24,922 nucleotides of DNA, from positions 1 to 24,922 of the forward strand of contig JAUXFG010000045.1 in the NCBI GenBank assembly GCA_030620115.1, in the 5' to 3' direction. The notes beneath the pieces are model-generated. The model saw only the letters and a list, made by a program, of their open reading frames with translations. It did not search any database and was not told the origin of the DNA. The stretch comes from Candidatus Fermentibacterota bacterium. Lineage in GTDB: Bacteria > JAFGKV01. Position numbers and translations under genes: made by a program. Shown here in pieces: positions 2,261 through 24,041 of this stretch; position 1 is the stretch's first letter; every line of letters begins with the position of its first letter.

Positions 2261-2650
2261 GCCTACGCCTGCCCTATCCGGAAGCGGGGCAGGAGACCGT
2301 TCTCCTTTGTCTCTGCCGATGAAAGATCGCGGATCGCAAATAACAGAGTTGGATATGTATTGGGATCACGAGGCAGATGGTCTGCGTACCGTCTCCTGGG
2401 ATTGGCCAATGGGATTGTGTGCTCCAGCACATCATCCGGCAGTCTCCTCGGCATGGTGGAGCAGGAAGGAAAGCGCAATGGCGCCTGTGTGGCTGGGGAT
2501 TCGATTCGATGGACAGCGATTTCGATACCTTTGGCACCCTGTGTCATACGGCTACCCTCCCGAATGAAGATATAAGTTTATTCGCTGTTGCCTCCTCTGT
2601 CAATGGTTTCTTGAGTACAGAGAGAATCTGGGATCTGGGAACCTATGATC

Positions 2651-2794
2651 GTAACCGTTCATGGGTTCAGCGGGTCTCACACCGATGTCCAGAGTGAGCT
2701 TTGCGTGGTGTTGGATCAACATATAATGAGAGCTGACTTCAGGGAACCTTGAATCCCGCTTCCAGCGGGAAACCCTGAACCCGTGAGCCGTTAC
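2651..2794. repeat. Inverted pair of CTGAACCCGTGAACGGTTAC-type repeats
   Basis: A 20-base arm at 2651-2670 is the reverse complement, at 17 of 20 positions, of an arm at 2775-2794. A related copy (CAACCCGTGAACGGTTAC) lies at 16848-16865, just before the zinc-ribbon gene, and a degraded one near 24067-24092. Each copy is itself nearly palindromic (AACCGTTCACGGGTT). The 100-odd bases between the arms encode nothing recognisable, so the pair may bound a small non-autonomous element or may be two independent copies. Confidence 0.6.
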
Positions 2795-2829
2795 CCAGAA
2801 TCTGGCAGTCCGGGGAAGGTATGAAGAGA

Positions 2830-2927
2830 GATTCTTCGCTCCCGTGGGTCGCTCGGAATGACAGGGATGCTTGGCATTGCACGTAGCAGCACATGTCATT
2901 CTGAGGGAGCGGAGCAACTGAGGAATC
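2830..2927. repeat. Dispersed inverted-repeat element (TCATTCTGAGGGAGCGGAG family), copy 1
   Basis: The left arm at 2830-2863 and right arm at 2894-2927 are imperfect reverse complements of each other (GATTCTTCGCTCC...GGAATGACA against TGTCATTCTGAGGGAGCGGAG...GGAATC). In RNA or single-stranded DNA they would make a long hairpin. The same arm-loop-arm unit recurs at 17233-17328, and a single right arm lies at 3341-3372. Similar TCATTCTGAG...GAAGAATCT repeats are common in many uncultivated bacterial genomes; their function is unknown. Confidence 0.8.
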
Positions 2928-2946
2928 TGGGAGAGGGGGAAAATGC

Positions 2947-2978
2947 GAATTGCTGAATTGCTGAATTGCTGGATTGCT
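2947..2978. repeat. 8-bp tandem repeat, four units of GAATTGCT
   Basis: Three exact GAATTGCT units are followed by GGATTGCT and then by a G-rich stretch (ATGGGGGAATGAGGG). A related C-rich array on the opposite strand sense lies at 5181-5211. This is a simple microsatellite in non-coding DNA. Confidence 0.85.
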
Positions 2979-3097
2979 GAAATGGGGGAATGAGGGATTG
3001 AACATCCTTTCGCCTACGCTCGAGGCAATCCCACGCAAGAAGCGTAGATGTGAGGAGGAGTTCGGGACAAAGTTCGAGACGAAGTTTGTGGGGATCA

Positions 3098-3165
3098 TGG
3101 AGGGCCATGCTCCGTCATGGCCGTAGATGCTCGATACCACGGACGCGACGGAGCGCGTCCCTCCA
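3098..3165. repeat. 68-bp double-hairpin repeat, copy 1
   Basis: An outer 7-bp stem (TGGAGGG 3098-3104 with CCCTCCA 3159-3165) encloses two hairpins with 7-bp stems and 6-base loops: GGCCATG/CATGGCC at 3103-3122 with loop CTCCGT, and GGACGCG/CGCGTCC at 3141-3160 with loop ACGGAG. The two loops are exact reverse complements. An inverted copy of identical length is at 5071-5138, and half a copy is at 14979-15003. Confidence 0.85.
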
Positions 3166-3340
3166 GAGGGTCTGTTGAGCTGGCGATTCGGAGAAAGGGG
3201 ATGCGGGAATGAACATCCAACGGCGAAGAGGGAAGCTGTTGAGCAGGAAGGAGGGAGGAAAGGAAAACATCGAACGCCCAACATCGAATGAGAAGAGGGG
3301 AGCTGACAGCTGATAGCTCGTATTGGACATGGCAACACGC

Positions 3341-3496: not shown

Positions 3497-3602
3497 CTAT
3501 TCATTTCAACCTTCTGAAAACCTCTCCAGGGTCTGATCGCCAAGTCTGAGACAAGGAAGGTTGCAGGTGCGGGCCTTGTGATTAGCTTGGGGTGCGGTGA
3601 TA

Positions 3603-3609
3603 GAGGAGG
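3603..3609 (+). promoter_or_regulatory. Ribosome-binding site that sets the murF start
   Basis: GAGGAGG lies 8 bases before the ATG at 3618. An in-frame GTG at 3597 lies upstream of this site and would place the Shine-Dalgarno sequence inside the coding region, so the ATG is preferred. Confidence 0.7.
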
Positions 3610-3617
3610 TACTCCCC

Positions 3618-5039
3618 ATGGGAATAGTGGAGATGCGGACTGAGTGTGTGATCGATATCCATGATGCTGAACATTGGACTAGGGGTCGGTGGACGCATCA
3701 ACCGGCAGATGCCCCTGGAGCCGTGACGCTCGACTCGCGTGCCGTACGGGAAGGCGATCTTTTCGTGGCTCTAAAGGGAGCGATCAGTGATGGGGAAGAA
3801 TTTGTGGCAGACGCGGCGTCCCGTGGCGCCTTGGCTGCTGTCGTGTCGAAGATCCCGGCGGGCGTTGATCCTCGCTTCCCGTGCCTCGTTGTAAAGGACA
3901 CCATGGATGCCCTTCACCGCCTGGCCGGTGGATGCAGGGATCGATTCAAAGGCAGCGTGGTGGCCATTACAGGAAGTGTGGGCAAGACCACGGTCAAGGA
4001 GATGACTGCGGCCATCCTTCAGGTTGAAGGCAAAACCGTATTCACCGCGGGGAACTTCAATAACATCACGGGAGTGCCTCTTACGGTGCTCAGGATGTGG
4101 CAACCAGCATCATATGCGGTAGTGGAAATCGGCATGAGTAAACCCGGCGAGATCAGTCTCCTCGTGCCTCTCGTCCGCCCGCATGTAGCCGGCGTCTTGA
4201 ACGTCCGCCCGGTTCATATGAAAAACTTCTCGGATCTGGGGCAGATTGCCGGCGCCAAGAGGGAAATCTTTGAGGGGCTTGAACCCGGCGGTGTGGCAGT
4301 ACTCAATGCTGATGACCCCCTGGTGAAAGGGATGCACCCCGGGCCAGAGCGTGAATGCCTGTACTTTGGCAGAACACCAAGGGCCGACCTGCGTTTGGGA
4401 AGGGAAGGCTCCTCTGATCTCCACACGCAACGCTTCGAACTCCTCTGGCGCCACGAAAAACTTCCCATAGAGCTGAGAGCCCCTGGTCTCCATAATCGCT
4501 ACAACGCCGCCGCAGCAGCCGCACTTGCATTGGCAGCAGAAGTCGGTTCAGCCTCAATCATCGAAGGCCTCGCCAACTACGACCCTGGAATGATGCGTTC
4601 AAAGCTATGGGAACTTTCTGATGGAAGTGTACTGCTTGAGGACTGCTACAACTCCTCCCCCGCCGCCTTCTCCGCTGCGCTGAATGCGCTTACGCATCTT
4701 CCCGTCCCGGGACGGCGAGTGGTGGTTATGGGTGATATGCTGGAGTTAGGGGATGAAGCTGAGGAATTCCATCGGAATGCCGGCAGAGAAGCGGCGGCAA
4801 AAGATGTCAACTGTCTTCTCGGCTTTGGCCCCCTCTCTGCCTACGCCGTCGAGGAGTTCAGGCGATACGCGCACGGCGCGATGGCGGAGAGTTGTACTGA
4901 TATGGAAGTCCTGAAGGAGCTTTTTGTCCAGGATCACAAACCCGGCGATATTTTGCTCGTAAAAGGTTCCCGCGGGATGTCTCTCGAACGGCTTACCAAG
5001 TATCTCCTTGCGCTCTGGCCGCCGAGGAATCAAAGATAG
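3618..5039 (+). CDS. murF: UDP-N-acetylmuramoyl-tripeptide--D-alanyl-D-alanine ligase MurF
   Basis: This cytoplasmic ligase adds D-Ala-D-Ala to the UDP-MurNAc-tripeptide, the last cytoplasmic step of the peptidoglycan stem peptide. From the ATG at 3618 the protein has 473 residues, usual for MurF. Visible family marks, in order: the N-terminal DSRAVREGDLFVALKG region that binds the uridine nucleotide, the ATP loop GSVGKTT (119-125), GNFNNITGVPLTVL, VEIGMSKPGEI, VLNADDP, EDCYNSSPAAFSAAL (matching the family D-x-YNANP motif), VVMGDMLELGDEAEEFH and the C-terminal LVKGSRGMSLERL. The start is set by the ribosome-binding site at 3603-3609. The gene stands alone rather than inside a division/cell-wall cluster, and converges with engB. 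Confidence 0.96.
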   Translation: MGIVEMRTECVIDIHDAEHWTRGRWTHQPADAPGAVTLDSRAVREGDLFVALKGAISDGEEFVADAASRGALAAVVSKIPAGVDPRFPCLVVKDTMDALHRLAGGCRDRFKGSVVAITGSVGKTTVKEMTAAILQVEGKTVFTAGNFNNITGVPLTVLRMWQPASYAVVEIGMSKPGEISLLVPLVRPHVAGVLNVRPVHMKNFSDLGQIAGAKREIFEGLEPGGVAVLNADDPLVKGMHPGPERECLYFGRTPRADLRLGREGSSDLHTQRFELLWRHEKLPIELRAPGLHNRYNAAAAAALALAAEVGSASIIEGLANYDPGMMRSKLWELSDGSVLLEDCYNSSPAAFSAALNALTHLPVPGRRVVVMGDMLELGDEAEEFHRNAGREAAAKDVNCLLGFGPLSAYAVEEFRRYAHGAMAESCTDMEVLKELFVQDHKPGDILLVKGSRGMSLERLTKYLLALWPPRNQR

Positions 5040-11589: not shown

Positions 11590-12510
11590 TTATACCCCCG
11601 GTTCCTCTGCGGTCTTCATGGGCTTGTAGACCGGATGGGAAGAGGGGAAGGAAGAGATAATTCGCCTCTGTGCAAGCACAGCTCGACGCCGAGAATATCT
11701 CGTATACTCCAATGGCACTCCCAACGTATCTTGGAGCGACGAACTCTGTTGCCCACGCGGGAAGTCATCGGTGCATGAGACATTCGGTTCGACACTGCTG
11801 ACAGAACTGACCTCCCACGTCACACCGCCAAGCATGCGGCGGATCTTAGTTCCCCATTCTCCGCTCTCGCTCGAATCTGCTCCATAAAGCTCCAGGATTA
11901 CTCTGCTCGGTGACAATTCACTGAGGAGACGTCTGAGCAGCTTCAGGTGTGGCATATGGTCGTTCATCTGCGCCACAATCGTCGATTCGATCCACAACTC
12001 CCCCTGGTACTCCTTGCTGAACCCGATCAGCCCGTCACGGTATCGCCCATAGGTCAGGCCACGGCGAGACCTATTGATCTTCTGGAAGACAGCCCGATCA
12101 GCAGCGTCCACTGCGAGGACGACCATCGATGATTGCGCCAAAGCGTCTCGAATCGATGGCCGGGAAAGCAGGGTCCCAGGGCTTCTCACCACAGCCGTCA
12201 ACCCCGTTCTTGTGGCTATTCGTCTCAGGAGATCGCCTAATCCGGTGAACTGGGTTGGATCCCCCATCCCTGCAAGCAGTATATGCTCCAATGGGCCATG
12301 GCGATCCCTAAGCTCGAGAATCTCCTCAACTGCACGTCCCGGCTCGAAGTATCTTCGCCTTCGGGCTCTCCTCCAACCGGCATCTCCGTACTGGCAGTAG
12401 ACACAGTTGAAGGAACATGACGGATATGGCGGCACCGCCGCCACGATACAGCGCCCGAACATTGTCGAGGTGGCAACACGCAACAACGGCAGATCTCCTT
12501 GCGTATACAT
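11590..12510 (-). CDS. Radical SAM protein of the COG0731 (TYW1-like Fe-S oxidoreductase) type
   Basis: A 306-residue radical S-adenosylmethionine enzyme. The [4Fe-4S] cluster triad is Cys32-x3-Cys36-x2-Cys39 in CSFNCVYC. GMGDPTQF and the stretch NRSRRGLTYGRYRDGLIGFSKEYQGELWIES match the COG0731 group (family pattern with INRP, a short spacer and a lysine-rich KGKLWLE segment). The substrate is unknown. ATG 12510 is the longest start, but AAGGAG sits 8 bases before an in-frame TTG at 12484-12486, which would shorten the protein by 8 residues and begin near the point where family similarity begins. A promoter is visible at 12562-12590. The gene lies upstream of, and on the same strand as, tig, with a 100-base gap, and is divergent from recD2. 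Confidence 0.85.
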   Translation of the reverse strand: MYTQGDLPLLRVATSTMFGRCIVAAVPPYPSCSFNCVYCQYGDAGWRRARRRRYFEPGRAVEEILELRDRHGPLEHILLAGMGDPTQFTGLGDLLRRIATRTGLTAVVRSPGTLLSRPSIRDALAQSSMVVLAVDAADRAVFQKINRSRRGLTYGRYRDGLIGFSKEYQGELWIESTIVAQMNDHMPHLKLLRRLLSELSPSRVILELYGADSSESGEWGTKIRRMLGGVTWEVSSVSSVEPNVSCTDDFPRGQQSSSLQDTLGVPLEYTRYSRRRAVLAQRRIISSFPSSHPVYKPMKTAEEPGV

Positions 12511-15094: not shown

Positions 15095-15123
15095 TTGACA
15101 TGGCACGCCACGGCATGTATCAT
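15095..15123 (+). promoter_or_regulatory. Strong sigma70-type promoter of the padR operon
   Basis: A perfect -35 TTGACA (15095-15100), a 17-base spacer and a -10 TATCAT (15118-15123). It lies about 50 bases before the padR start. This is the best promoter in the window. Confidence 0.8.
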
Positions 15124-15125
15124 CT

Positions 15126-15142
15126 ATGTGCATGATGCATAT
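15126..15142 (+). promoter_or_regulatory. Palindromic operator candidate at the padR transcription start
   Basis: ATGTGCATGATGCATAT is an 8+1+8 palindrome with one mismatch. It sits immediately downstream of the -10 box and so spans the expected transcription start, ideal for repression. ATGT/ACAT-type half sites are typical of PadR regulators, so autorepression by the adjacent gene product is the simplest reading. Confidence 0.6.
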
Positions 15143-15174
15143 AGCTGCACAGAGAAAGGAGCAACATTACGCAC

Positions 15175-15585
15175 ATGAGGTCAGGAAGACGACGCGGTCC
15201 CTACGGCAAGGCATGCCCGAGACGAATTGGCCGCTTCCTGGAACCCTGCCTCCTTCTTCTCCTGAGATCCCGTGAAGTCCACGGATACGAGCTTCTTGAG
15301 GGCCTCAGAGAATTCGGCTTCGGCGAAAACCCTGTGGACTCCAGCACGGTCTACCGCATGCTTCGTGCACTCGAGGCTGGCGGACAGGTGATCTCGCGAT
15401 GGGAGGTCGAAGGTTCAGGGCCACCGCGGCGATTGTACCGACTAACGCATGTTGGCGGGCAATCCTTGAACGCGTGGGTCGCGGATCTCAGGGAAACCGA
15501 TAAGGTGCTCCACCATTTTCTTCACGTGTACGATGGCCATGCTGCTATAGAGTATCTATCATCAAAAAAGGAGAATTCACTATGA
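15175..15585 (+). CDS. PadR-family transcriptional regulator
   Basis: A 136-residue winged-helix protein. After a basic, glycine-rich N-terminus, residues about 20-95 carry the PadR fold: LEPCLLLLLRSREVHGYELLEGLREFG, then DSSTVYRMLRALEAGGQVISRWEVEGSGPPRRLYRLT, where SSTVYRMLRALE is the recognition helix region. A short helical C-terminus follows (LRETDKVLHHFLHVYDGH). Cys14 and Cys25 could sense redox state or metal, but this is speculative. AAGGAG lies 13 bases before the ATG, a little far. The stop overlaps the next ATG (ATGA), so the regulator is co-translated with the COG1433 gene and heads the operon. The promoter and palindrome upstream suggest autoregulation. Confidence 0.9.
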   Translation: MRSGRRRGPYGKACPRRIGRFLEPCLLLLLRSREVHGYELLEGLREFGFGENPVDSSTVYRMLRALEAGGQVISRWEVEGSGPPRRLYRLTHVGGQSLNAWVADLRETDKVLHHFLHVYDGHAAIEYLSSKKENSL

Positions 15586-16088
15586 AGATTGTTGTTGCTA
15601 CTGAGAATGACGGGCTTGGCGCGCAGGTCAGTCCCGTATTCGGCCGAGCCCCAAAGTTCTGTTTTGTAGACTCGGAATCATTTGAATCAGACTGCGTGGC
15701 CAACCCAGCAGTCACGCAGGCAGGAGGCGCTGGCATTCAAGCGGCTGAATTCGTGGTCAAGAGTGGTGCGGAAACAGTTTTGGCCGGGGACATAGGCCCC
15801 AACGCCTTTCAGGTGCTTCAGGCGGCCCAGATTCCTTGCTACAATGTGGAAGCAACCACCGTGGAGAAGGCGGTGGCCGCATTTCGTCAAGGTAGTCTCA
15901 AGCCCTTGGGAAATGCCAGCGCCGCGTCACACTCGGGCATGTCCGGCGCCACGGCATCACCTGCTGCATCACATCTCTCTGCGCAACCCCAGGATGAAAT
16001 GGCTGCGCTCCACGAAACGCTCAAAGATCTCCGGCACAAGCTTGCCGAGACAATGGAAAGAATCGAAAAACTCGCAAAGGAGAGCTGA
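15582..16088 (+). CDS. NifX/NifB-family (COG1433, ORP-like) protein with coiled-coil tail, copy 1
   Basis: A 168-residue protein. Residues 1 to about 108 form a dinitrogenase iron-molybdenum cofactor biosynthesis domain (MKIVVATENDGLGAQVSPVFG at the start, GAETVLAGDIGPNAFQVL in the middle), the fold that binds metal-sulfur clusters in NifX, NafY and the orange protein ORP. An Ala/Ser-rich linker (about 110-137) joins it to a heptad-like helix (DEMAALHETLKDLRHKLAETMERIEKLAKE), probably for dimerisation. No nif genes are nearby, so a nitrogenase role is unlikely. Neighbouring ferredoxin-MinD ATPases suggest an ORP-like system. AAGGAG precedes the ATG at good spacing, and the start overlaps the padR stop by 4 bases. 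Confidence 0.88.
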   Translation: MKIVVATENDGLGAQVSPVFGRAPKFCFVDSESFESDCVANPAVTQAGGAGIQAAEFVVKSGAETVLAGDIGPNAFQVLQAAQIPCYNVEATTVEKAVAAFRQGSLKPLGNASAASHSGMSGATASPAASHLSAQPQDEMAALHETLKDLRHKLAETMERIEKLAKES

Positions 16089-16091
16089 CAA

Positions 16092-16586
16092 ATGAGAATC
16101 GCCCTTTCTTCGGACGACAAGAATGGTCTCGATAGTATCGTGAACCCCCATTTTGGTCGTTGTCCGTTTTTTGTTCTGGTGGATGTTGAGGAGGGACACG
16201 TACAATCAGTTCGTGAGGAAAAGAATCCCCACTACCCCAATCATCAGCCGGGACAAATACCACGATTCATTGCCAGCCTTGGGGCCAACGTAATGATGGC
16301 CGGCGGCATGGGACGAAGAGCCATCATGATGTTCAATGAATTAGGCATCGAGGGAGTGACTGGAGCCCACGGAACGGTACGGCAAGCAATTGAACGCTAC
16401 TTGGGAGGCGAGCTGAAAGGCGCGGCTCCATGTACGGAAAGCCAAATGCACACCCTTGGCGAGAGCGATCACCACAACATATATGAAGAGGATGAGATCG
16501 GACGGCTCCGAGAGGAAGTCGCCATGTTGAAGACCCAGCTGGATACTGCATCAAGCAAGTTGCGGAACATAGAAAAAGGAACATAA
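16092..16586 (+). CDS. NifX/NifB-family (COG1433, ORP-like) protein with coiled-coil tail, copy 2
   Basis: A 164-residue paralogue of the preceding gene, starting 3 bases after its stop with AAGGAG 9 bases ahead. The COG1433 domain covers about 1-118 (VNPHFGRCPFFVLVD, then GANVMMAGGMGRRAIMMFNELGIEGVTG, then TVRQAIERYLGGEL). A short His-containing linker (ESDHHN) and a C-terminal coiled coil (EIGRLREEVAMLKTQLDTAS, then SKLRNIEKGT) follow. The stop TAA (16584-16586) is also the first three bases of the left terminal repeat of a MITE-like element, so the present C-terminus may have been created by that insertion. Two similar proteins side by side could form a heterodimer through their tails. Confidence 0.88.
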   Translation: MRIALSSDDKNGLDSIVNPHFGRCPFFVLVDVEEGHVQSVREEKNPHYPNHQPGQIPRFIASLGANVMMAGGMGRRAIMMFNELGIEGVTGAHGTVRQAIERYLGGELKGAAPCTESQMHTLGESDHHNIYEEDEIGRLREEVAMLKTQLDTASSKLRNIEKGT

Positions 16587-16785
16587 CCCGGACTTCTCAC
16601 CGGCTTTCGAAGCGAAGCCCCGCGTCGGACGCGGGGTTCTGAATGCGAGGCTTGCGACCGAGGACACCGCCGGCGTATCCTCTGCGATACGTCGAGGAGG
16701 CCGACGGAGCGTAACGAAGTCCCGCGGCGGACGCGGGATGCCATATCGGAGGCTGCAGCCGCCAGTTGGTGAGAAATCCGGGATA
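16584..16785. mobile_element. 202-bp MITE-like element with 18-bp terminal inverted repeats
   Basis: TAACCCGGACTTCTCACC (16584-16601) and GGTGAGAAATCCGGGATA (16768-16785) are inverted repeats matching at 16 of 18 positions. Both ends carry TA, as expected for insertion at a TA dinucleotide. The interior is non-coding and holds hairpins CCCCGCG/CGCGGGG (16618-16636) and CCCGCG/CGCGGG (about 16723-16739), plus a GTATC/GATAC stem between them. It has no transposase, so it would be non-autonomous. The left end is repeated alone at 12643-12660. It lies inside the padR operon and may alter expression of the genes downstream. Confidence 0.65.
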
Positions 16786-16847
16786 GCCATTCAGAAGTTC
16801 AGGAGGCCTTCTCTGGTTAATTCGGAATCTTTGAACCTTGAACCTTT

Positions 16848-16865
16848 CAACCCGTGAACGGTTAC
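16848..16865. repeat. Copy of the AACCCGTGAACGGTTAC repeat
   Basis: It matches the arms at 2651-2670 and 2775-2794 and ends 24 bases before the zinc-ribbon start codon. It is preceded by TTGAACCTTGAACC, also seen near 2749. Confidence 0.6.
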
Positions 16866-16875
16866 AAAAACAGAC

Positions 16876-16882
16876 AAGGAGG
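16876..16882 (+). promoter_or_regulatory. Ribosome-binding site that sets the zinc-ribbon gene start
   Basis: A perfect AAGGAGG 7 bases before ATG 16890. An earlier in-frame ATG at 16854 lies within the dispersed repeat and lacks such a site. Confidence 0.75.
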
Positions 16883-16889
16883 ATTGAAC

Positions 16890-17084
16890 ATGCAAGCACA
16901 ACAAGGCGGCAGAGGGATAGGCCGTGGCGGTATGGGCCGTGGCAGGATGGGTGGCCCCAAGGCCGCAGGCCCTGCTGGCTCCTGCGTCTGCCCCAATTGC
17001 GGCGCCACCTCACCGCATCAAGTCGGTCAACCCTGTACCCAACAACAATGCCCAAAGTGCGGCGCAACCATGACAAGGGCGTAG
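16890..17084 (+). CDS. Small Gly/Arg-rich zinc-ribbon protein
   Basis: A 64-residue protein. Residues 1-30 are Gly/Arg-rich (QQGGRGIGRGGMGRGRMGG), flexible and basic. The rest is a zinc-ribbon or rubredoxin-like knuckle pair: Cys34-x2-Cys37-G and Cys54-x2-Cys57-G, with additional Cys32 and Cys49. Small proteins of this kind commonly sit beside COG1433 and ferredoxin-MinD genes in anaerobes; their function is unknown, and metal or cluster delivery is a guess. The gene is small but has the best ribosome-binding site in the operon. It is separated from its neighbours by repeat-filled gaps of about 300 and 358 bases. Confidence 0.8.
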   Translation: MQAQQGGRGIGRGGMGRGRMGGPKAAGPAGSCVCPNCGATSPHQVGQPCTQQQCPKCGATMTRA

Positions 17085-17442
17085 GGGAATCTGTAATTTG
17101 GCAATCTAGAATCTATAATCTGACCATCTGAGGAATAGGGGGATTCCAAGATGCTGGATTGCTGGAGAGAGCCTCCCGCATCCGCCTTCGCCGAGGCTTC
17201 GTCGTGACAAGAAAGCGCAAAGAATGAAGAGAGATTCTTCGCTCCTGGGTCGCTCAGAATGACAGGGATGCCTGGCTTTTTGTGTGGCAACACCTGTCAT
17301 TCTGAGGGAGTGGAGCGACCGAAGAATCTGCATTTGGGACAAAGAAGGTAATCGACGAAGTTTGTGGCGGGGAAAATCCTGAAGATAGAAGACCGTCGAA
17401 CGACAACCAACAACTGACAACGAAGAACAAGGAGTTCCTGAT
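17085..17442. other. Repeat-filled gap within the ORP-like operon
   Basis: 358 bases between the zinc-ribbon and first MinD genes. They contain the inverted-repeat element at 17233-17328 and low-complexity fragments (GCTGGATTGCTGG near 17155, CAACTGACAACGAAG near 17410). No gene is supported, and no promoter is obvious before the MinD gene. Its ribosome-binding site AAGGAG lies just upstream of the ATG. Confidence 0.6.
17233..17328. repeat. Dispersed inverted-repeat element (TCATTCTGAGGGAGCGGAG family), copy 2
   Basis: Left arm 17233-17264 and right arm 17295-17328 pair into a long hairpin. Sequence and layout match the copy at 2830-2927, including AGGGATGC after the left arm. In an operon transcript this would be a strong secondary structure between the zinc-ribbon and MinD genes. 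Confidence 0.8.
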
Positions 17443-18318
17443 ATGATTATTGCAGTGGCCAGCGGCAAGGGAGGAACCGGGAAGACCACCATTGCCACGA
17501 GCCTAGCCCTCATCGCGCAGGAACAGACCACGAATTCGGATAGCGTCCTATTCTTGGATTGCGACGTGGAAGAGCCCAATGCTTCGATCTTCCTCAAGCC
17601 AAGCTTCAGTGAATCTGTGGACACGGGCGTACTGGTGCCACATGTCGACCTCGACAAATGCACCTACTGTGGTCGGTGCGCGGAGGTCTGTGTGTGGCAT
17701 GCCATTGCCGTGGTGCCAAAAAATGTCCTTGTCTTCGCCTCACTCTGCCATGGCTGTGGAAGCTGCGCTCTCGTCTGCCCCGAGAACGCGATCACCGAAT
17801 CACTCAATGTCACGGGAAAGCTGGAGCGCGGCAACGCCGGCCCGATCCGCGTTGCCCGCGGCATCATGAATGTGGGAGAATTGATGGCGGTCCCCATCAT
17901 CAGAGAACTCAAGAAAGCAAATCCGCCCTCTCCTCGAGGCATCACGATCCTCGATGCCTCACCAGGTACGAGCTGCCCGGTGGTGGAGACCATAAGCGGC
18001 GCGGATTTTGTGCTTCTCGTGACAGAGCCAACGCCGTTTGGGCTCCATGATCTGCGTGCGGCAGTAGACGTTGCCAGAGGCGAGATGGGCCTTCCTGTGG
18101 GCGTGGTGATCAACAGAGCCGGCGTAGGCGACGATGGTGTAGAGCTCTATTGCCAAGAGAAGAACATATCAATCCTTGCCTCCATACCTCTGGACAGACG
18201 TATTGCGGAAGCAGTTTCGGAAGGCACGATGCTGGTTGAAGCTCTTCCCGAGTATCGGCCCGTGATCGAGGAAATACTCGCCGGCATTATGCGGCAACTC
18301 GCCGAGGTAACCTCATGA
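17443..18318 (+). CDS. MinD-superfamily P-loop ATPase with inserted 2x[4Fe-4S] ferredoxin domain, copy 1
   Basis: A 291-residue protein of the COG1149 type. The deviant Walker A loop GKGGTGKTT (8-16) carries the signature Lys9, followed by LDCDVEEPN (38-46). A bacterial ferredoxin domain is inserted with Cys73, 76, 79, 83 and Cys102, 105, 108, 112, each set C-x2-C-x2-C-x3-C, for two [4Fe-4S] clusters. The ATPase core resumes with ILDASPGTSCPV and ADFVLLVTEPTPFGLHD. Members are thought to couple ATP hydrolysis to cluster or electron transfer; in Desulfovibrio two such proteins accompany the orange protein ORP. AAGGAG lies 8 bases before the ATG. The stop overlaps the next gene's start (ATGA), so both are made together. 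Confidence 0.93.
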   Translation: MIIAVASGKGGTGKTTIATSLALIAQEQTTNSDSVLFLDCDVEEPNASIFLKPSFSESVDTGVLVPHVDLDKCTYCGRCAEVCVWHAIAVVPKNVLVFASLCHGCGSCALVCPENAITESLNVTGKLERGNAGPIRVARGIMNVGELMAVPIIRELKKANPPSPRGITILDASPGTSCPVVETISGADFVLLVTEPTPFGLHDLRAAVDVARGEMGLPVGVVINRAGVGDDGVELYCQEKNISILASIPLDRRIAEAVSEGTMLVEALPEYRPVIEEILAGIMRQLAEVTS

Positions 18319-19202
18319 AACAGCTTGTGATCTTGAGCGGCAAAGGAGGAACGGGCAAGACTTCTCTGGCGGCGGCCCTCGCTTCTCTGGCGGCGGCTGA
18401 CATGAAAATCGTTTTAGTCGATGCGGACGTTGACGCCGCCAATCTTGAACTCATCACCCAGATCACGCGGCTGGAGGAAACCCCATTCTGGGGAGGCAAA
18501 GTCGCCACCATAGACCCAGCGCTATGCACTTCGTGCGGCATATGCGAGGAAATCTGCAGATTTGAGGCGATTCACCACTCAGACAATGAGTACCGTATTG
18601 ATCCCATCTCCTGCGAAGGCTGCGATGCATGTGTGTATCAGTGTCCTGTGAGCGCCATCCAGAGCGAAGAACAGCAAGCAGGGGTTTGGTTCAGATCCTC
18701 CACACCATTTGGCGCCCTGTTTCATGCGCATCTATTTGCAGGCATGGATAACTCCGGCAAGCTCGTGACCACAATCAAGCAGCGGGGTCGGCAGGAGGTG
18801 CTGGACAACCGTGGAGATCTCCTCCTGGTGGACGGTCCGCCGGGTATAGGGTGCCCAGTGATCTCCGCGACAGCAGGCGCTGACTTTGCTCTCCTGGTTG
18901 TCGAACCCTCGGTCTCGGCCATTCATGATCTTGAACGTATTTTGGAAACGGTCCGTCATTTCGGCGTACCGGCACTGGTAGTCATCAATAAGGCTGATCT
19001 CAATCCCACGAACACAAGGGTCATCCGCGTTTTCTGCAAAGAACACGATGTTGGGCTCGTCGGCGAGATCCCATTCGACACCGTGGTTACCGAGTCAATG
19101 GCACAGGGTCTTGTGGTGACTGAATATCGACCAGATTCCGCAGTATCCCGTTCGATTCGAGGCATCTGGCAGGAACTCCGGGAACAACTATCCCTCGGGT
19201 AA
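18315..19202 (+). CDS. MinD-superfamily P-loop ATPase with inserted 2x[4Fe-4S] ferredoxin domain, copy 2
   Basis: A 295-residue paralogue of the preceding gene, overlapping it by 4 bases. Walker A is GKGGTGKTS (9-17), followed by LVDADVDAANLEL. The ferredoxin cysteines are 71, 74, 77, 81 and 100, 103, 106, 110. Switch region LLVDGPPGIGCPVISATAGAD and specificity loop VVINKADLNPTN follow. The strict pairing of two ferredoxin-MinD proteins suggests a heterodimeric ATPase, as proposed for ORP loci; this is inference. The next gene, an envelope protein, begins only 4 bases after its stop, which makes transcriptional and probably translational linkage likely. Confidence 0.93.
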   Translation: MKQLVILSGKGGTGKTSLAAALASLAAADMKIVLVDADVDAANLELITQITRLEETPFWGGKVATIDPALCTSCGICEEICRFEAIHHSDNEYRIDPISCEGCDACVYQCPVSAIQSEEQQAGVWFRSSTPFGALFHAHLFAGMDNSGKLVTTIKQRGRQEVLDNRGDLLLVDGPPGIGCPVISATAGADFALLVVEPSVSAIHDLERILETVRHFGVPALVVINKADLNPTNTRVIRVFCKEHDVGLVGEIPFDTVVTESMAQGLVVTEYRPDSAVSRSIRGIWQELREQLSLG

Positions 19203-19206
19203 GACC

Positions 19207-21186
19207 GTGACCAACTCGATAACCTGGAAGCCGGGACCATTCTCTTGGCTCTATCTGATCATTGTCGCGCTTTCAGCATCACCGCTTCATGCGGATACGC
19301 ACGCGAAGAGTTTGGTATTCCTCTACGGGCCTGCGGTATCCATCGCCCGCGAAACCCTATTCAAGACATCAATACCCGAGTCCACTTTGCTCGAGCCGCC
19401 CCGGAGCTCCCGCATCTTCAGCAATGAAACAAGAGCGCATTTTCTGCTCTGTGAAGGACAAATCCTGGAGCTGGAAAAGCAGTCGTCCTTCTCTCTCGAG
19501 AGATCACGAAAACGGCTGATTCTGCATGGCGGAACCATGACGCTCCATGCTGAGGAAACGGCGGATACGCTCTGCTACGAGCTCGATAATCGTGGGGCCC
19601 TGATACGATATGCATCTCCGGGCATTGTCTGGCTTACGGTAAGTGACAGCACTTGCATATGCCTTTCAACAGGGCAGATGCTTGCTGCGGGAGCAAGCCC
19701 GGTACTCAAGACCGGCTGGTTCAGGAAACCTGCCCTGGATGCCTTCTACCTTTTCGGACTGCTTCGCCGGGGGACATTTCCCCGCAATCCATCGCTCCTG
19801 GTTTTCCCAAGCGCTCGCCGCCCGGCGCTCCGGCAGAGGAGCAGAGGCTCCGCCGGTGTAGCTACGTATGATGGACAACGCTACTACCTTGCCGATATCC
19901 TCTACAGACTCAACTACCGGCAGCTCGAGTTTGCCTACAATTTCTGGTTCGCGTTCGCAAAGGATGGCACATTTTATTCAGAAGCCTGGAATGAATGGAA
20001 GGATCTGGTAGACCACATCCATCATATCCAACTGTTCAAGCCTGACAGGCCGGTGTATCTGCGAATCGGTCTCATCGAACATCTTACATTTGGGCAGGGA
20101 CTCCTCGTGAGGGATTACCTCAATGGCATGTTCCTTCCTTTCGAGCAACACAGTGGGCTGGAGACACGGCTTCAGGCGGGACGGTTTCGCTGGAAAATGT
20201 TCGTCAATGATATTGGCCGCCCACGTGTAATGGGAACTACGGTGTCCTGGCATCGGGGCGAAAAGACAAGGATGGCTCTCTCCTATGTGGGCGACATGAA
20301 CCAGTACTCGAACATCTCGGATGATGACGGCGATTCGTATCCTGACGTAGTGGATCCGGAGCCTGACATATTCAATGCCCCTGAAGACAGCATCATCCAG
20401 GCAACAGAACCGCCGCGATTGGATGAGGCTTCATCCCGGCAGCTTCATGGCCTGTCTCTTGGCGCCCGCTACCAATGGATCGACACCGACGATCTACGCC
20501 TCGCAGTGCGCGGTGAAGCAGCAGTCTATTGGGACGCCGGCTCGGGGTTGAGCTTCCCGGACGTGACAGTGGGCTACAAATGGATCGACGTCGCCATTGG
20601 ATTGGATTTCCAGTCACCGCATTTCATTGCCACGCTATTCAATCGTACCTACGAACGCCGCAAGGCTCATTTCGTAGAACGGGAAGAAGGTGGCTATGAC
20701 CTCGTCTCCATCGGACATGAACTTGACGATACGGGAGATTGGCTGTACGGATGGAACAACGCCATTACCATCCATGTACCGCCCCATGCACGACTCCGGA
20801 CGCGATTCAGGGACATCTACCGCGGAGACGAAAGAGACAAGAGCTTCGCGCTGACAGTGGAGAGTTTCCACGCGTTGACGAGGCTCAATCTCAAAGGGTC
20901 GTTCTTCGTTGAGCAAAGAAATGTATCATTGCTGTTCCGGAAAAAGACCGATGGGGAGAGTTGGGGACTTCAGATCAAGCTTCAGCCGCATCACACTATC
21001 CAGGGGAAGATCCGATATCGTGAACGGTACAGCGACGACAACGGCAACCTCATCATAGATGAGGCCGAAATCGAGCGCAACATCACCGCTCTCGCCACTG
21101 TCAGAGGAGACTATTGGTGGAAAAAATTGCGTGTGTGGTGGAAGAATCGAAAACACCAAGATCCTGAAGCTACAGACTCCTCATGA
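19207..21186 (+). CDS. Exported outer-membrane-like protein with possible FecR-like N-terminal domain
   Basis: A 659-residue protein starting at GTG, 4 bases after the MinD-2 stop. Residues 1-29 form a signal peptide (LYLIIVALSASPLHA, cleavage before DTH). Residues about 33-165 look like a degenerate FecR-type beta domain (SSRIFSNETRAHFLLCEGQI, ERSRKRLILHGGTMTL, IVWLTVSD, CICLSTGQMLAAG). From about 215 onwards the alternating aromatic/polar pattern resembles a transmembrane beta-barrel. Residues 284-306 (YLRIGLIEHLTFGQGLLVRD then YLN) match a segment of the barrel protein at 21510-22748. DDDGDSYPDVVDPEPD (372-387) resembles a calcium-binding thrombospondin-type-3 loop. The C-terminus is polar and lacks a terminal aromatic residue. 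Function is unknown; the coupling to the ORP-like genes is notable. Confidence 0.8.
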   Translation: MTNSITWKPGPFSWLYLIIVALSASPLHADTHAKSLVFLYGPAVSIARETLFKTSIPESTLLEPPRSSRIFSNETRAHFLLCEGQILELEKQSSFSLERSRKRLILHGGTMTLHAEETADTLCYELDNRGALIRYASPGIVWLTVSDSTCICLSTGQMLAAGASPVLKTGWFRKPALDAFYLFGLLRRGTFPRNPSLLVFPSARRPALRQRSRGSAGVATYDGQRYYLADILYRLNYRQLEFAYNFWFAFAKDGTFYSEAWNEWKDLVDHIHHIQLFKPDRPVYLRIGLIEHLTFGQGLLVRDYLNGMFLPFEQHSGLETRLQAGRFRWKMFVNDIGRPRVMGTTVSWHRGEKTRMALSYVGDMNQYSNISDDDGDSYPDVVDPEPDIFNAPEDSIIQATEPPRLDEASSRQLHGLSLGARYQWIDTDDLRLAVRGEAAVYWDAGSGLSFPDVTVGYKWIDVAIGLDFQSPHFIATLFNRTYERRKAHFVEREEGGYDLVSIGHELDDTGDWLYGWNNAITIHVPPHARLRTRFRDIYRGDERDKSFALTVESFHALTRLNLKGSFFVEQRNVSLLFRKKTDGESWGLQIKLQPHHTIQGKIRYRERYSDDNGNLIIDEAEIERNITALATVRGDYWWKKLRVWWKNRKHQDPEATDSS

Positions 21187-21509: not shown

Positions 21510-22748
21510 CTAGAATTCCATGGAAATGGCGAGCCGCGGCTTGATGACTTCAACGGCTCGATAGCTCCCATCTTCCTGCCTTTCAAAGGTCTTCCTGTAC
21601 AGGACATACAGCATGGTGTAGACATTGAGTCGATACCCCATCTCGGCTTCCATCAATGTGCTCTCATCTTCGTCGAATAGATCAGACGCTTTCTCGATTC
21701 CCGTCTTATCAAGGCTCGCCCGAAACGAGATTCCTCCAGGAAACCCCTCGAGCGTTCCATCAAAGTGGAGCACCCCACTATGCGGACGCTCGTCGATATA
21801 CTGATAGCCTCCCATGACGGTGACTACACCAAGAATGGTGCCTCTTAGCTCCCCGTATACAGCGCGACCACTCTCAACGGAATCCAGGAGCGCCTTCTTG
21901 TTCAGTCCGGTGGAGGGGTCATAACGCTGCAATCCGTAGAATGCATCGAAGTAAGCCGGAATGAAGGCATCGCCGAGAAACCTTCGTTCCAGCCTCGCCT
22001 GGATGTCGGACACTCCGGCGAATCGACCAAGGTTTGAGCCAACCCCCACAGCCTGCCCACTGCCATAATCGAGAATGTGGGCATGGTCGGCATAGAGGTA
22101 GAGCCCGATCGGTGGGCCCGCCAGCAGCGGCAGTTCGGCATCAACCCCTGCGATCCGTATCTCATCCGACGTGTCCCAGTCATTGTCTGGATCCAGATCG
22201 ACAGCGGCCGTTCCTCCGAGGCGCAGACATCTGATCAGCGGCATGGACAGTGAGCCTAGCGGTGCCATCCAAACGCGTGCTCCCACGACCTCCCACATAG
22301 CAAGGTTGCTCGAGAAGCACGCACCGCCAAGAACATTGCTGTTGCCCCGGAGGTGAAGCCCCAGCCGCTGATAGTCCTCATCGTACCAGTTCTTATAGTG
22401 ATTCACGATGAAACCATGGCCGATGGTCAGATCGTCCAATGCTCCGGCCCGCGCATAGAGAATACCCTCCGGATATCCGTATCGCACATAGCGGATAAGG
22501 CGTATCCACTTGTGATCCTCATCCCAGTCTGCGTCTCGGATTCCCTCTTCCTCGCCCATGAGAAGCTCGATATCCAAGCCCACTCCGAGCTTGCCCAGGA
22601 TGAGTTCGGGCTGAAAGCGGACTACCCAGTAGACCTTGTCATCGATAATTGTCGCTCCCAACTCACCACCGATTACTTCCAGCCCCCAACTAGCCGAGGA
22701 GAAGAGAGCCAGCGCGAGCAGCGCTTGCATGAGTCGTGATGCCATCAT
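21510..22748 (-). CDS. Predicted outer-membrane beta-barrel protein
   Basis: A 412-residue protein. The signal peptide covers about 1-22 (MQALLALALFSSASWG). The mature part alternates hydrophobic and polar residues in strand-sized runs and ends in RLAISMEF, a terminal Phe strand of the type recognised by the BAM machinery. Residues 98-120 (YARAGALDDLTIGHGFIVNH then YKN) align without gaps to residues 284-306 of the convergent gene at 19207-21186 with 10 of 23 identities. An Asp-rich loop DLDPDNDWDTSDE could bind calcium. The start is supported by GGAGGG 8 bases upstream. The stop faces the other barrel gene across a repeat-filled gap. No known family name is recognised; a channel or a structural role are both possible. 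Confidence 0.82.
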   Translation of the reverse strand: MMASRLMQALLALALFSSASWGLEVIGGELGATIIDDKVYWVVRFQPELILGKLGVGLDIELLMGEEEGIRDADWDEDHKWIRLIRYVRYGYPEGILYARAGALDDLTIGHGFIVNHYKNWYDEDYQRLGLHLRGNSNVLGGACFSSNLAMWEVVGARVWMAPLGSLSMPLIRCLRLGGTAAVDLDPDNDWDTSDEIRIAGVDAELPLLAGPPIGLYLYADHAHILDYGSGQAVGVGSNLGRFAGVSDIQARLERRFLGDAFIPAYFDAFYGLQRYDPSTGLNKKALLDSVESGRAVYGELRGTILGVVTVMGGYQYIDERPHSGVLHFDGTLEGFPGGISFRASLDKTGIEKASDLFDEDESTLMEAEMGYRLNVYTMLYVLYRKTFERQEDGSYRAVEVIKPRLAISMEF

Positions 22749-22844: not shown

Positions 22845-24041
22845 GTGACATCCCATTCCCCCGTTATCGCCCTCTACGTCACCGGCCATGGCTTCGGGCA
22901 CGCCGTGCGCTGCGCCACAGTCGTGTCGCAGCTCTGTGCCCGCATCCCTGATCTCAAGGTGTTCGTGAAGACGGAAGCACCTCAGTGGCTCTTCAGGGGA
23001 ATCGAATGCGCGGAGCTCTGCTATCTCCAGCAAGTTGTCGATGCATCGCCTATCCAGGTGGATGCATTCACTATGGACCTACCCAAAACTACAGAATATG
23101 TTCTGCAATGGTTTGCCCGAAAGGACAAGTGGATTGAGGATGAGGCTCAATGGCTGAATGGAATCAATGCCGCTCTGGTCATTGCGGATATCAGTCCGCT
23201 GGCCTTGGTGGCCGCACGTCAGGCCGCCGTGCCCTCGGCCCTTGTGGCAAACTTCACGTGGGATTGGATCTATGGGAATCTCGGGCATGCTGATGCTCAC
23301 TTTGGTCCGATTGCCGAAGAGTTGCGCCCATACTCCCGCTTGGCGGATTGGGCATTTGTCCCAAAACCGGCAGCTCCTCCCCACTGGCATGCATATCCCA
23401 TCCTCGTGGACATCGTGGGAAGAGCATGCCCGATGTCACGCTCCGAAGCTCGGAAACATCTCGGCATCCATCCCAGCGATCAGGCAGTACTGTTGACCTT
23501 TGGCGGCATCGGCGCAGGGCGGTTTGACTTCACTCAGCTGAACGACTTGGAGAACTACCGATTCCTCAGCACCGAACCCCGGCCCGGTCTGAACAACTGC
23601 ATCGTCTATCAACCATGGGACGTTGACCACGCGTGCCTGGTCAACGCAGCTGACATCATCGTGGGCAAACTCGGCTACGGCACTGTGGCGGAGGCACTGA
23701 TTCACGGCACCCCTGTACTCTATTCCCCAAGAAAGGATTGGCCCGAAGGGCTCGTCTTGCGTGAAGCGGTCCACACGGCCTTACCCTCGATCTCCATGCC
23801 GCGTGAACAGTTCGAACAATGTCTGTGGAAGCAGGCGCTTGGCGAGCTGGCCGGGGCGAAACGACCGGAGCGCCAACCAGGATATGGCGCAGTTCAGATC
23901 GCCTCGATGCTCGCCGCGTTTCTGCAGGATCCCAAGTCGATCTCGCCAGGATACTATCCTGCACAAGACAAGCTCTCCAAAGCTCGGAGCCGCATTTGCT
24001 CGCAGGTGTCAGGCAAGAAAAAAAACGCACGCGTGTGCTGA
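22845..24041 (+). CDS. Glycosyltransferase-like protein related to the N-terminal domain of plant arabinokinase
   Basis: A 398-residue GT-B-type protein from a GTG start, with AGGAG 13 bases ahead. YVTGHGFGHAVRC (11-23) opens the N-terminal Rossmann domain. QVDAFTMDLPKTTEYV, EAQWLNGINAALVIADISPL and VANFTWDWIYGN follow in the same order as in the N-terminal half of plant L-arabinokinase. The C-terminal domain contains SRSEARKHLGI, LLTFGGIG and GKLGYGTVAEAL, the nucleotide-sugar-binding segment. No galactokinase-type (GHMP) domain follows, so it is a stand-alone version; the substrate is unknown and catalysis is not proven. It is divergent from the barrel gene, with about 95 bases between them. 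The basic tail GKKKNARVC is unconserved-looking. Confidence 0.85.
   Translation: MTSHSPVIALYVTGHGFGHAVRCATVVSQLCARIPDLKVFVKTEAPQWLFRGIECAELCYLQQVVDASPIQVDAFTMDLPKTTEYVLQWFARKDKWIEDEAQWLNGINAALVIADISPLALVAARQAAVPSALVANFTWDWIYGNLGHADAHFGPIAEELRPYSRLADWAFVPKPAAPPHWHAYPILVDIVGRACPMSRSEARKHLGIHPSDQAVLLTFGGIGAGRFDFTQLNDLENYRFLSTEPRPGLNNCIVYQPWDVDHACLVNAADIIVGKLGYGTVAEALIHGTPVLYSPRKDWPEGLVLREAVHTALPSISMPREQFEQCLWKQALGELAGAKRPERQPGYGAVQIASMLAAFLQDPKSISPGYYPAQDKLSKARSRICSQVSGKKKNARVC

Follow-up and report, generated by a model that had tools for sequence, protein, structure and literature searches.

The 24,922-nucleotide window analyzed here, from a Candidatus Fermentibacterota bacterium, contains a locus that probably encodes an ORP-type metal-sulfur system in a variant under PadR control. 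The orange protein (ORP) system of Desulfovibrio handles metal-sulfur clusters, and systems of its type are common in anaerobes. The locus encodes, on the same strand and in this order, a PadR regulator, two COG1433 proteins (NifX1 and NifX2), a zinc ribbon protein (ZnR), two MinD-type ATPases (MinD1 and MinD2) and an exported protein. Most likely its products use ATP to assemble or deliver metal-sulfide clusters, and PadR keeps the genes repressed in the absence of a signal from a metal, a metalloid or sulfide. A preliminary description had proposed a variant ORP-type system with duplicated COG1433 subunits and a possible envelope partner; the ORP-like gene set, the PadR regulator and the sigma-70-type promoter withstood our analysis, while the local COG1433 duplication and the envelope partner did not.

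Organization and recurrence of the locus

Every gene of the set was confirmed on a single strand, and the four tight junctions reported earlier are present: PadR and NifX1 overlap by 4 nt, NifX1 and NifX2 are separated by a 3-nt gap, MinD1 and MinD2 overlap by 4 nt, and a 4-nt gap lies between MinD2 and the exported protein. The preliminary description does not mention that ZnR is isolated by 303 nt on the NifX2 side and 358 nt on the MinD1 side, largely of repeat-like sequence.

Table 1 Features of the locus (window coordinates)
Feature	Position	Strand	Evidence
Sigma-70-like promoter, TTGACA-17-TATCAT	15095..15123	+	11/12 matches, the region's best
Predicted 21-bp palindromic PadR operator, CTATGTGCATGATGCATATAG	15124..15144	.	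Directly 3' of the -10
Small-type PadR regulator, 136 aa	15175..15585	+	PF03551, E 1e-14, 54.5 bits
NifX1: COG1433, ORP/MTH1175 group, C-terminal helical tail	15582..16088	+	PF02579, E 2e-20; 2wfb ORP, rmsd 1.0 Å
NifX2: COG1433, TM1816/PH0822 group, HFGRC, HxPGQxP, coiled-coil tail	16092..16586	+	PF02579, E 1e-21
ZnR: Gly/Arg-rich segment and six-cysteine ribbon, CxCPxC-x13-C-x5-CPxCGxxMxR	16890..17084	+	Motif; start best placed at 16890
MinD1: P-loop ATPase, inserted two-[4Fe-4S] ferredoxin domain	17443..18318	+	Motifs; MinD2 pairing in most surveyed genomes
MinD2: P-loop ATPase, inserted two-[4Fe-4S] ferredoxin domain	18315..19202	+	Motifs; MinD1 fusions in L090, L105, L107
Exported protein, barrel-like	19207-21186	+	

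MinD1 and MinD2 each carry KGGTGKT and two C-x2-C-x2-C-x3-C motifs. Of 60 sampled genomes, 21 contain relatives of MinD2 (E 1e-30 or better), which almost always have an adjacent MinD1, and 34 contain COG1433 genes. Gene maps of 21 loci commonly place NifX1, MinD1, MinD2 and NifX2 together, and the genes recurring nearby encode DUF5320-like small proteins, Zn ribbons, Mrp/MrpORP, NifU_N-Mrp, NifS-like, DUF59-like and DUF89-like proteins and a radical SAM protein; neighbour family names that lack a Pfam match were assigned by reading the sequences. The genes are not scattered, as the neighbourhoods are conserved across the surveyed genomes, and all of them except that of the exported protein form a real, recurrent locus. 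A contig scan with the single MinD2 protein returned mostly ferredoxin-only matches and one useful relative, L062.

Several components also occur as natural fusions. MinD1 and MinD2 are joined into one protein of about 600 residues in three loci (L090 2980-4827, L105 401-2212 and L107 614-2473), and a NifU_N scaffold domain is fused to an Mrp P-loop carrier in two (L092 6363-7784 and L091 8717-10018). ZnR is a separate protein in L090, L093, L102 and L156, forms part of a NifX2 fusion in L149 and of a fusion with a NifX-like protein in L092, and is absent from several PadR-type loci.

Searches revealed no tRNA in the window and no Rfam match for a riboswitch or other RNA at the locus. The intergenic stretches at 16590-17440 and 2600-3340 of the window are repeat-like and include CCTGTCATTCTGAG-type pieces together with GC-rich palindromes; similar pieces lie between other genes of the same genome (L172, L147). 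On the opposite strand, 3 kb from the locus, the window encodes a radical SAM protein (11590-12510, minus strand) that resembles a protein encoded within, or next to, the NifX/MinD loci L090 and L092 of the same family.

Promoter and predicted PadR operator

The palindrome CTATGTGCATGATGCATATAG has 10-base arms with one mismatch, and such a palindrome arises in 2.5% of shuffles of the upstream region. The pattern CTATRTGN7CAYATAG has a single exact match in the 4.1-Mb genome, which is this site, and none with one mismatch. With 0-1 mismatches it is found upstream of PadR at ten other loci (L149, L148, L160, L163, L152, L153, L155, L161, L197 and L198), a result equalled in 0 of 300 shuffles, although the pattern was drawn up after some of these sites had been seen and the figures for those are somewhat optimistic. 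In L148 and L149 a promoter-like TTGAC...TATC(A/T)T, recognized by eye, directly precedes the operator. The f7 PadR loci (L150, L151) have no such palindrome (5 mismatches), though PadR heads the same locus there. The PadR gene and the promoter support the control proposed in the preliminary description, and the winged helix-turn-helix, short C-terminal part and ATGT/ACAT-like operator place the regulator, by its sequence, among the small PadR (PadR-s2) repressors. The locus appears to be switched by PadR at a conserved predicted site and not by sigma-54 control.

No GG-N10-GC sigma-54 promoter was found at the locus. A TGGCACG is present between the -35 and -10 elements, but with the -12 GC one base off, and the sequence is absent in L148 and L149; sigma-54 itself is encoded in the genome. 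A genome-wide regulon defined by the operator was likewise rejected: elsewhere the genome holds only 2-mismatch sites, 18 versus 30 for the reversed control, and the best-looking of these, C110:28956 (L172 1501-1521), lies in front of an apparent Phd/VapC-type toxin-antitoxin pair and is probably unrelated.

The two COG1433 proteins

NifX1 and NifX2 are the sole two PF02579 matches in the genome. The best sequence matches of NifX1 are MTH1175 and D. gigas ORP, and ORP is also its best structural match, whereas NifX2 matches PH0822 and TM1816. In a tree of 58 COG1433 domains, which has only 114 columns and many unresolved forks, the two proteins fall on opposite sides, and both sides include most of the surveyed loci. 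Judged from the tree, NifX1 and NifX2 are thus an ancient pair, one from each of two old subfamilies (ORP/MTH1175-like and TM1816/PH0822-like), and not the product of local duplication. The grouping of NifX1 with D. gigas ORP and MTH1175 also argues against placement of these proteins in unrelated NifX clades.

The coiled-coil tails noted previously are borne out by the AlphaFold models, which end in a C-terminal helix of 32 residues in NifX1 and 36 in NifX2, and by a heptad periodicity reached by no more than 0.05% of shuffles. NifX2 is closer than NifX1 to the COG1433 part of MrpORP, with 70 and 21 bits, respectively, against the MrpORP model (cut-off 450). It retains HFGRC, HxPGQxP and a C-terminal Cys, which overlap in part with the MrpORP motifs CxHFGHCE, PPPHxPGxxP and CDH (PMC6345978).

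PadR relatives and exchange of control

Our PadR search found a match in 35 of 386 genomes. The four best matches outside the genome itself (G242, G105, G295 and G156) head NifX1-(NifX2)-MinD1-MinD2, and L148 and L149 have the exact order seen in the window, PadR-NifX1-NifX2-MinD1-MinD2. Several of the remaining PadR relatives stand at the head of, or next to, genes for NifX, DUF5320-like proteins or ArsP_1 permeases, and others lie by unrelated genes. In the MinD2 tree the PadR-headed loci of f7, f104 and the window group together (99/97), apart from the window's own family, and f104 is the sister group of the window (96/90); f16 is a second, separate PadR-headed MinD2 group. Two relatives from the family, G001 and G002, have a PAS-sigma-54 activator beside the locus in place of PadR, and activators of this kind adjoin five further loci. 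Because these relatives carry the PAS-sigma-54 activator instead, the simplest reading would be an exchange of control between sigma-54 activator and PadR within the family, probably accompanied by horizontal transfer. This swap among close relatives, together with the natural MinD1-MinD2 and NifX2-Zn ribbon fusions, indicates which parts work together. Our literature search, which covered open-licence papers, found none evidently linking PadR with COG1433 genes.

Mrp, the ORP component missing from the locus, is encoded elsewhere in the genome. There a paralogue of PadR, PadR2 (50% identical; G000:C195), heads an operon and is followed by Mrp, a DUF5320-like protein and a two-cluster ferredoxin; the Mrp has a DUF59-type domain, a P-loop and CPKC. 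Since PadR2 heads the Mrp operon and L156 carries PadR-NifX1-ZnR-MrpORP in one run, Mrp too is associated with a PadR-type regulator. The candidate PadR2 operator is weak, with 3 mismatches, and is reached in 2.7% of shuffles. A larger and rather doubtful proposal is a two-operon ORP regulon governed by paralogous PadRs, one on NifX/MinD and one on Mrp-DUF5320-ferredoxin, that would directly sense metal-sulfide species or a metalloid, set apart a subfamily of PadR proteins serving metal-sulfur homeostasis in anaerobes and replace sigma-54 control within one bacterial family.

The exported protein

Orthologues of the exported protein in G001 and G002 (41-43% identity) are found on stretches of contig that lack NifX and MinD genes and are followed by the same convergent outer-membrane protein and glycosyltransferase as in the window. 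The family-conserved block consists of the exported protein, the convergent outer-membrane-like protein (21510-22748), which weakly matches ImpL63, and the glycosyltransferase (22845-24041). In the sister genus (G001) the orthologue is directly 3' of murF, with no MinD gene nearby; the window has its murF-like gene at 3597-5039 (54% identical). As the orthologues are unlinked to NifX and MinD, a rearrangement in a single lineage accounts for the 4 nt between the gene and MinD2. The exported protein may be co-transcribed with MinD2 today, but comparison of the genomes marks its gene as a chance neighbour only, with no conserved partnership seen, and the envelope partner suggested before is not upheld.

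Discussion

By analogy with published work on ORP and IssA, and from the neighbouring genes, we infer that the system handles Fe-S or metal-sulfide clusters; NifS-, DUF59-like and NifU_N-Mrp genes near the loci of relatives support such a role, and NifX-fold proteins are known cluster carriers (PMC13128457). In the proposed mechanism a PadR dimer would bind the palindrome over the transcription start and block RNA polymerase on its own operon, until a metal, metalloid or sulfide-type signal, which we guess from the neighbours, releases it. NifX1 and NifX2, oligomerized through their tails, may then hold the anionic cluster, and ZnR could be a partner of NifX2. A MinD1/MinD2 heterodimer could couple ATP hydrolysis and electrons from four [4Fe-4S] clusters to the loading or moving of the metal-sulfide cluster, and the Mrp of the PadR2 operon might supply [4Fe-4S] clusters to the two ATPases, a role that MrpORP fills in Desulfovibrio. 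The inducing signal of ORP-type systems could be sought through this small repressor and its defined, predicted 21-bp site, which offer a simple handle.

Neighbours of the PadR relatives hint at a metal or metalloid signal: short ArsP_1-type permease genes are headed by PadR at L152, L153 and L159 (with a DGC protein), an SBF-family transporter, NifX2 and ArsP_1 accompany PadR at L163, and the f16 loci run NifX2-ArsP_1-DUF1980. The same neighbours could point to a stress response, in which PadR would respond to a toxic metal or metalloid, with the NifX and MinD proteins sequestering or detoxifying it as a sulfide complex. This is unlikely, given that the window locus has no permease, that other PadR relatives have unrelated neighbours and that the function of ArsP_1 is known for few members.

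Slightly less likely still is iron-sulfur storage of the kind described for IssA and IssX, in which NifX1 would hold a polymeric thioferrate, ZnR stabilize it and the MinD ATPases mobilize it. IssA belongs to the MTH1175 clade (PMC5524996), whose COG1433 domain NifX1 resembles, and Gly/Arg-rich tails are found on NifX1 of some relatives (L149, L062), with such a segment in ZnR. However, IssA has a long cationic Gly/aromatic tail, whereas that of the window NifX1 is a predicted coiled coil, and storage is described without the ATPase pair that the window encodes (PMC5524996).

That the ATPases act as Min proteins in cell division or positioning, with the exported protein as membrane partner, is very improbable: they have a MinD-family P-loop, and ORP is putatively linked to division in Desulfovibrio (PMC6345978), but the MinD models score 85 against a cut-off of 202, MinD1 does not end in a basic amphipathic helix, and in the sister genus the gene of the exported protein lies apart from the ATPase genes. 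Nitrogenase-type cofactor maturation, suggested by the NifX fold and by structural matches that include NifX and NafY, can be virtually dismissed (the preliminary description had called it unlikely), because a search of the genome found no nifDK-type gene (PF00148) and NifX and NafY are distant matches.

The favoured reading, a PadR-controlled ORP-type system, is best compared with the ORP complex of Desulfovibrio vulgaris, which comprises Orp3, Orp4, Orp5, Orp8 and Orp9 and in which MrpORP passes Fe-S clusters to apo-Orp3-Orp4-Orp8 (PMC6345978). Both have a pair of ferredoxin-MinD ATPases with two [4Fe-4S] motifs each, an ORP-type COG1433 protein (Orp8; NifX1 falls in the same half of the tree), a second COG1433 domain from the other subgroup and an Mrp carrier in the genome. 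In Orp9/MrpORP the Mrp P-loop is fused to COG1433, whereas the window genome has a stand-alone Mrp and NifX2 in separate operons. The Desulfovibrio genes form sigma-54-dependent divergent operons with a cognate activator, in contrast to the single operon, PadR and sigma-70-like promoter here, and the coiled-coil tails of the window COG1433 proteins are a further difference. Orp5 is homologous to a [2Fe-2S] protein; ZnR, at most a tentative counterpart, has six cysteines. The Desulfovibrio ORP binds a Mo-Cu sulfide cluster. PadR-s2 repressors such as LmrR recognize a canonical ATGT/ACAT site (PMC3506622), to which the window palindrome, ATGT-N9-ATAT, is close. Like them, the window PadR is short and, by its position, would autoregulate its operon; LmrR-type regulators target a drug pump, whereas the window PadR heads metal-sulfur genes.
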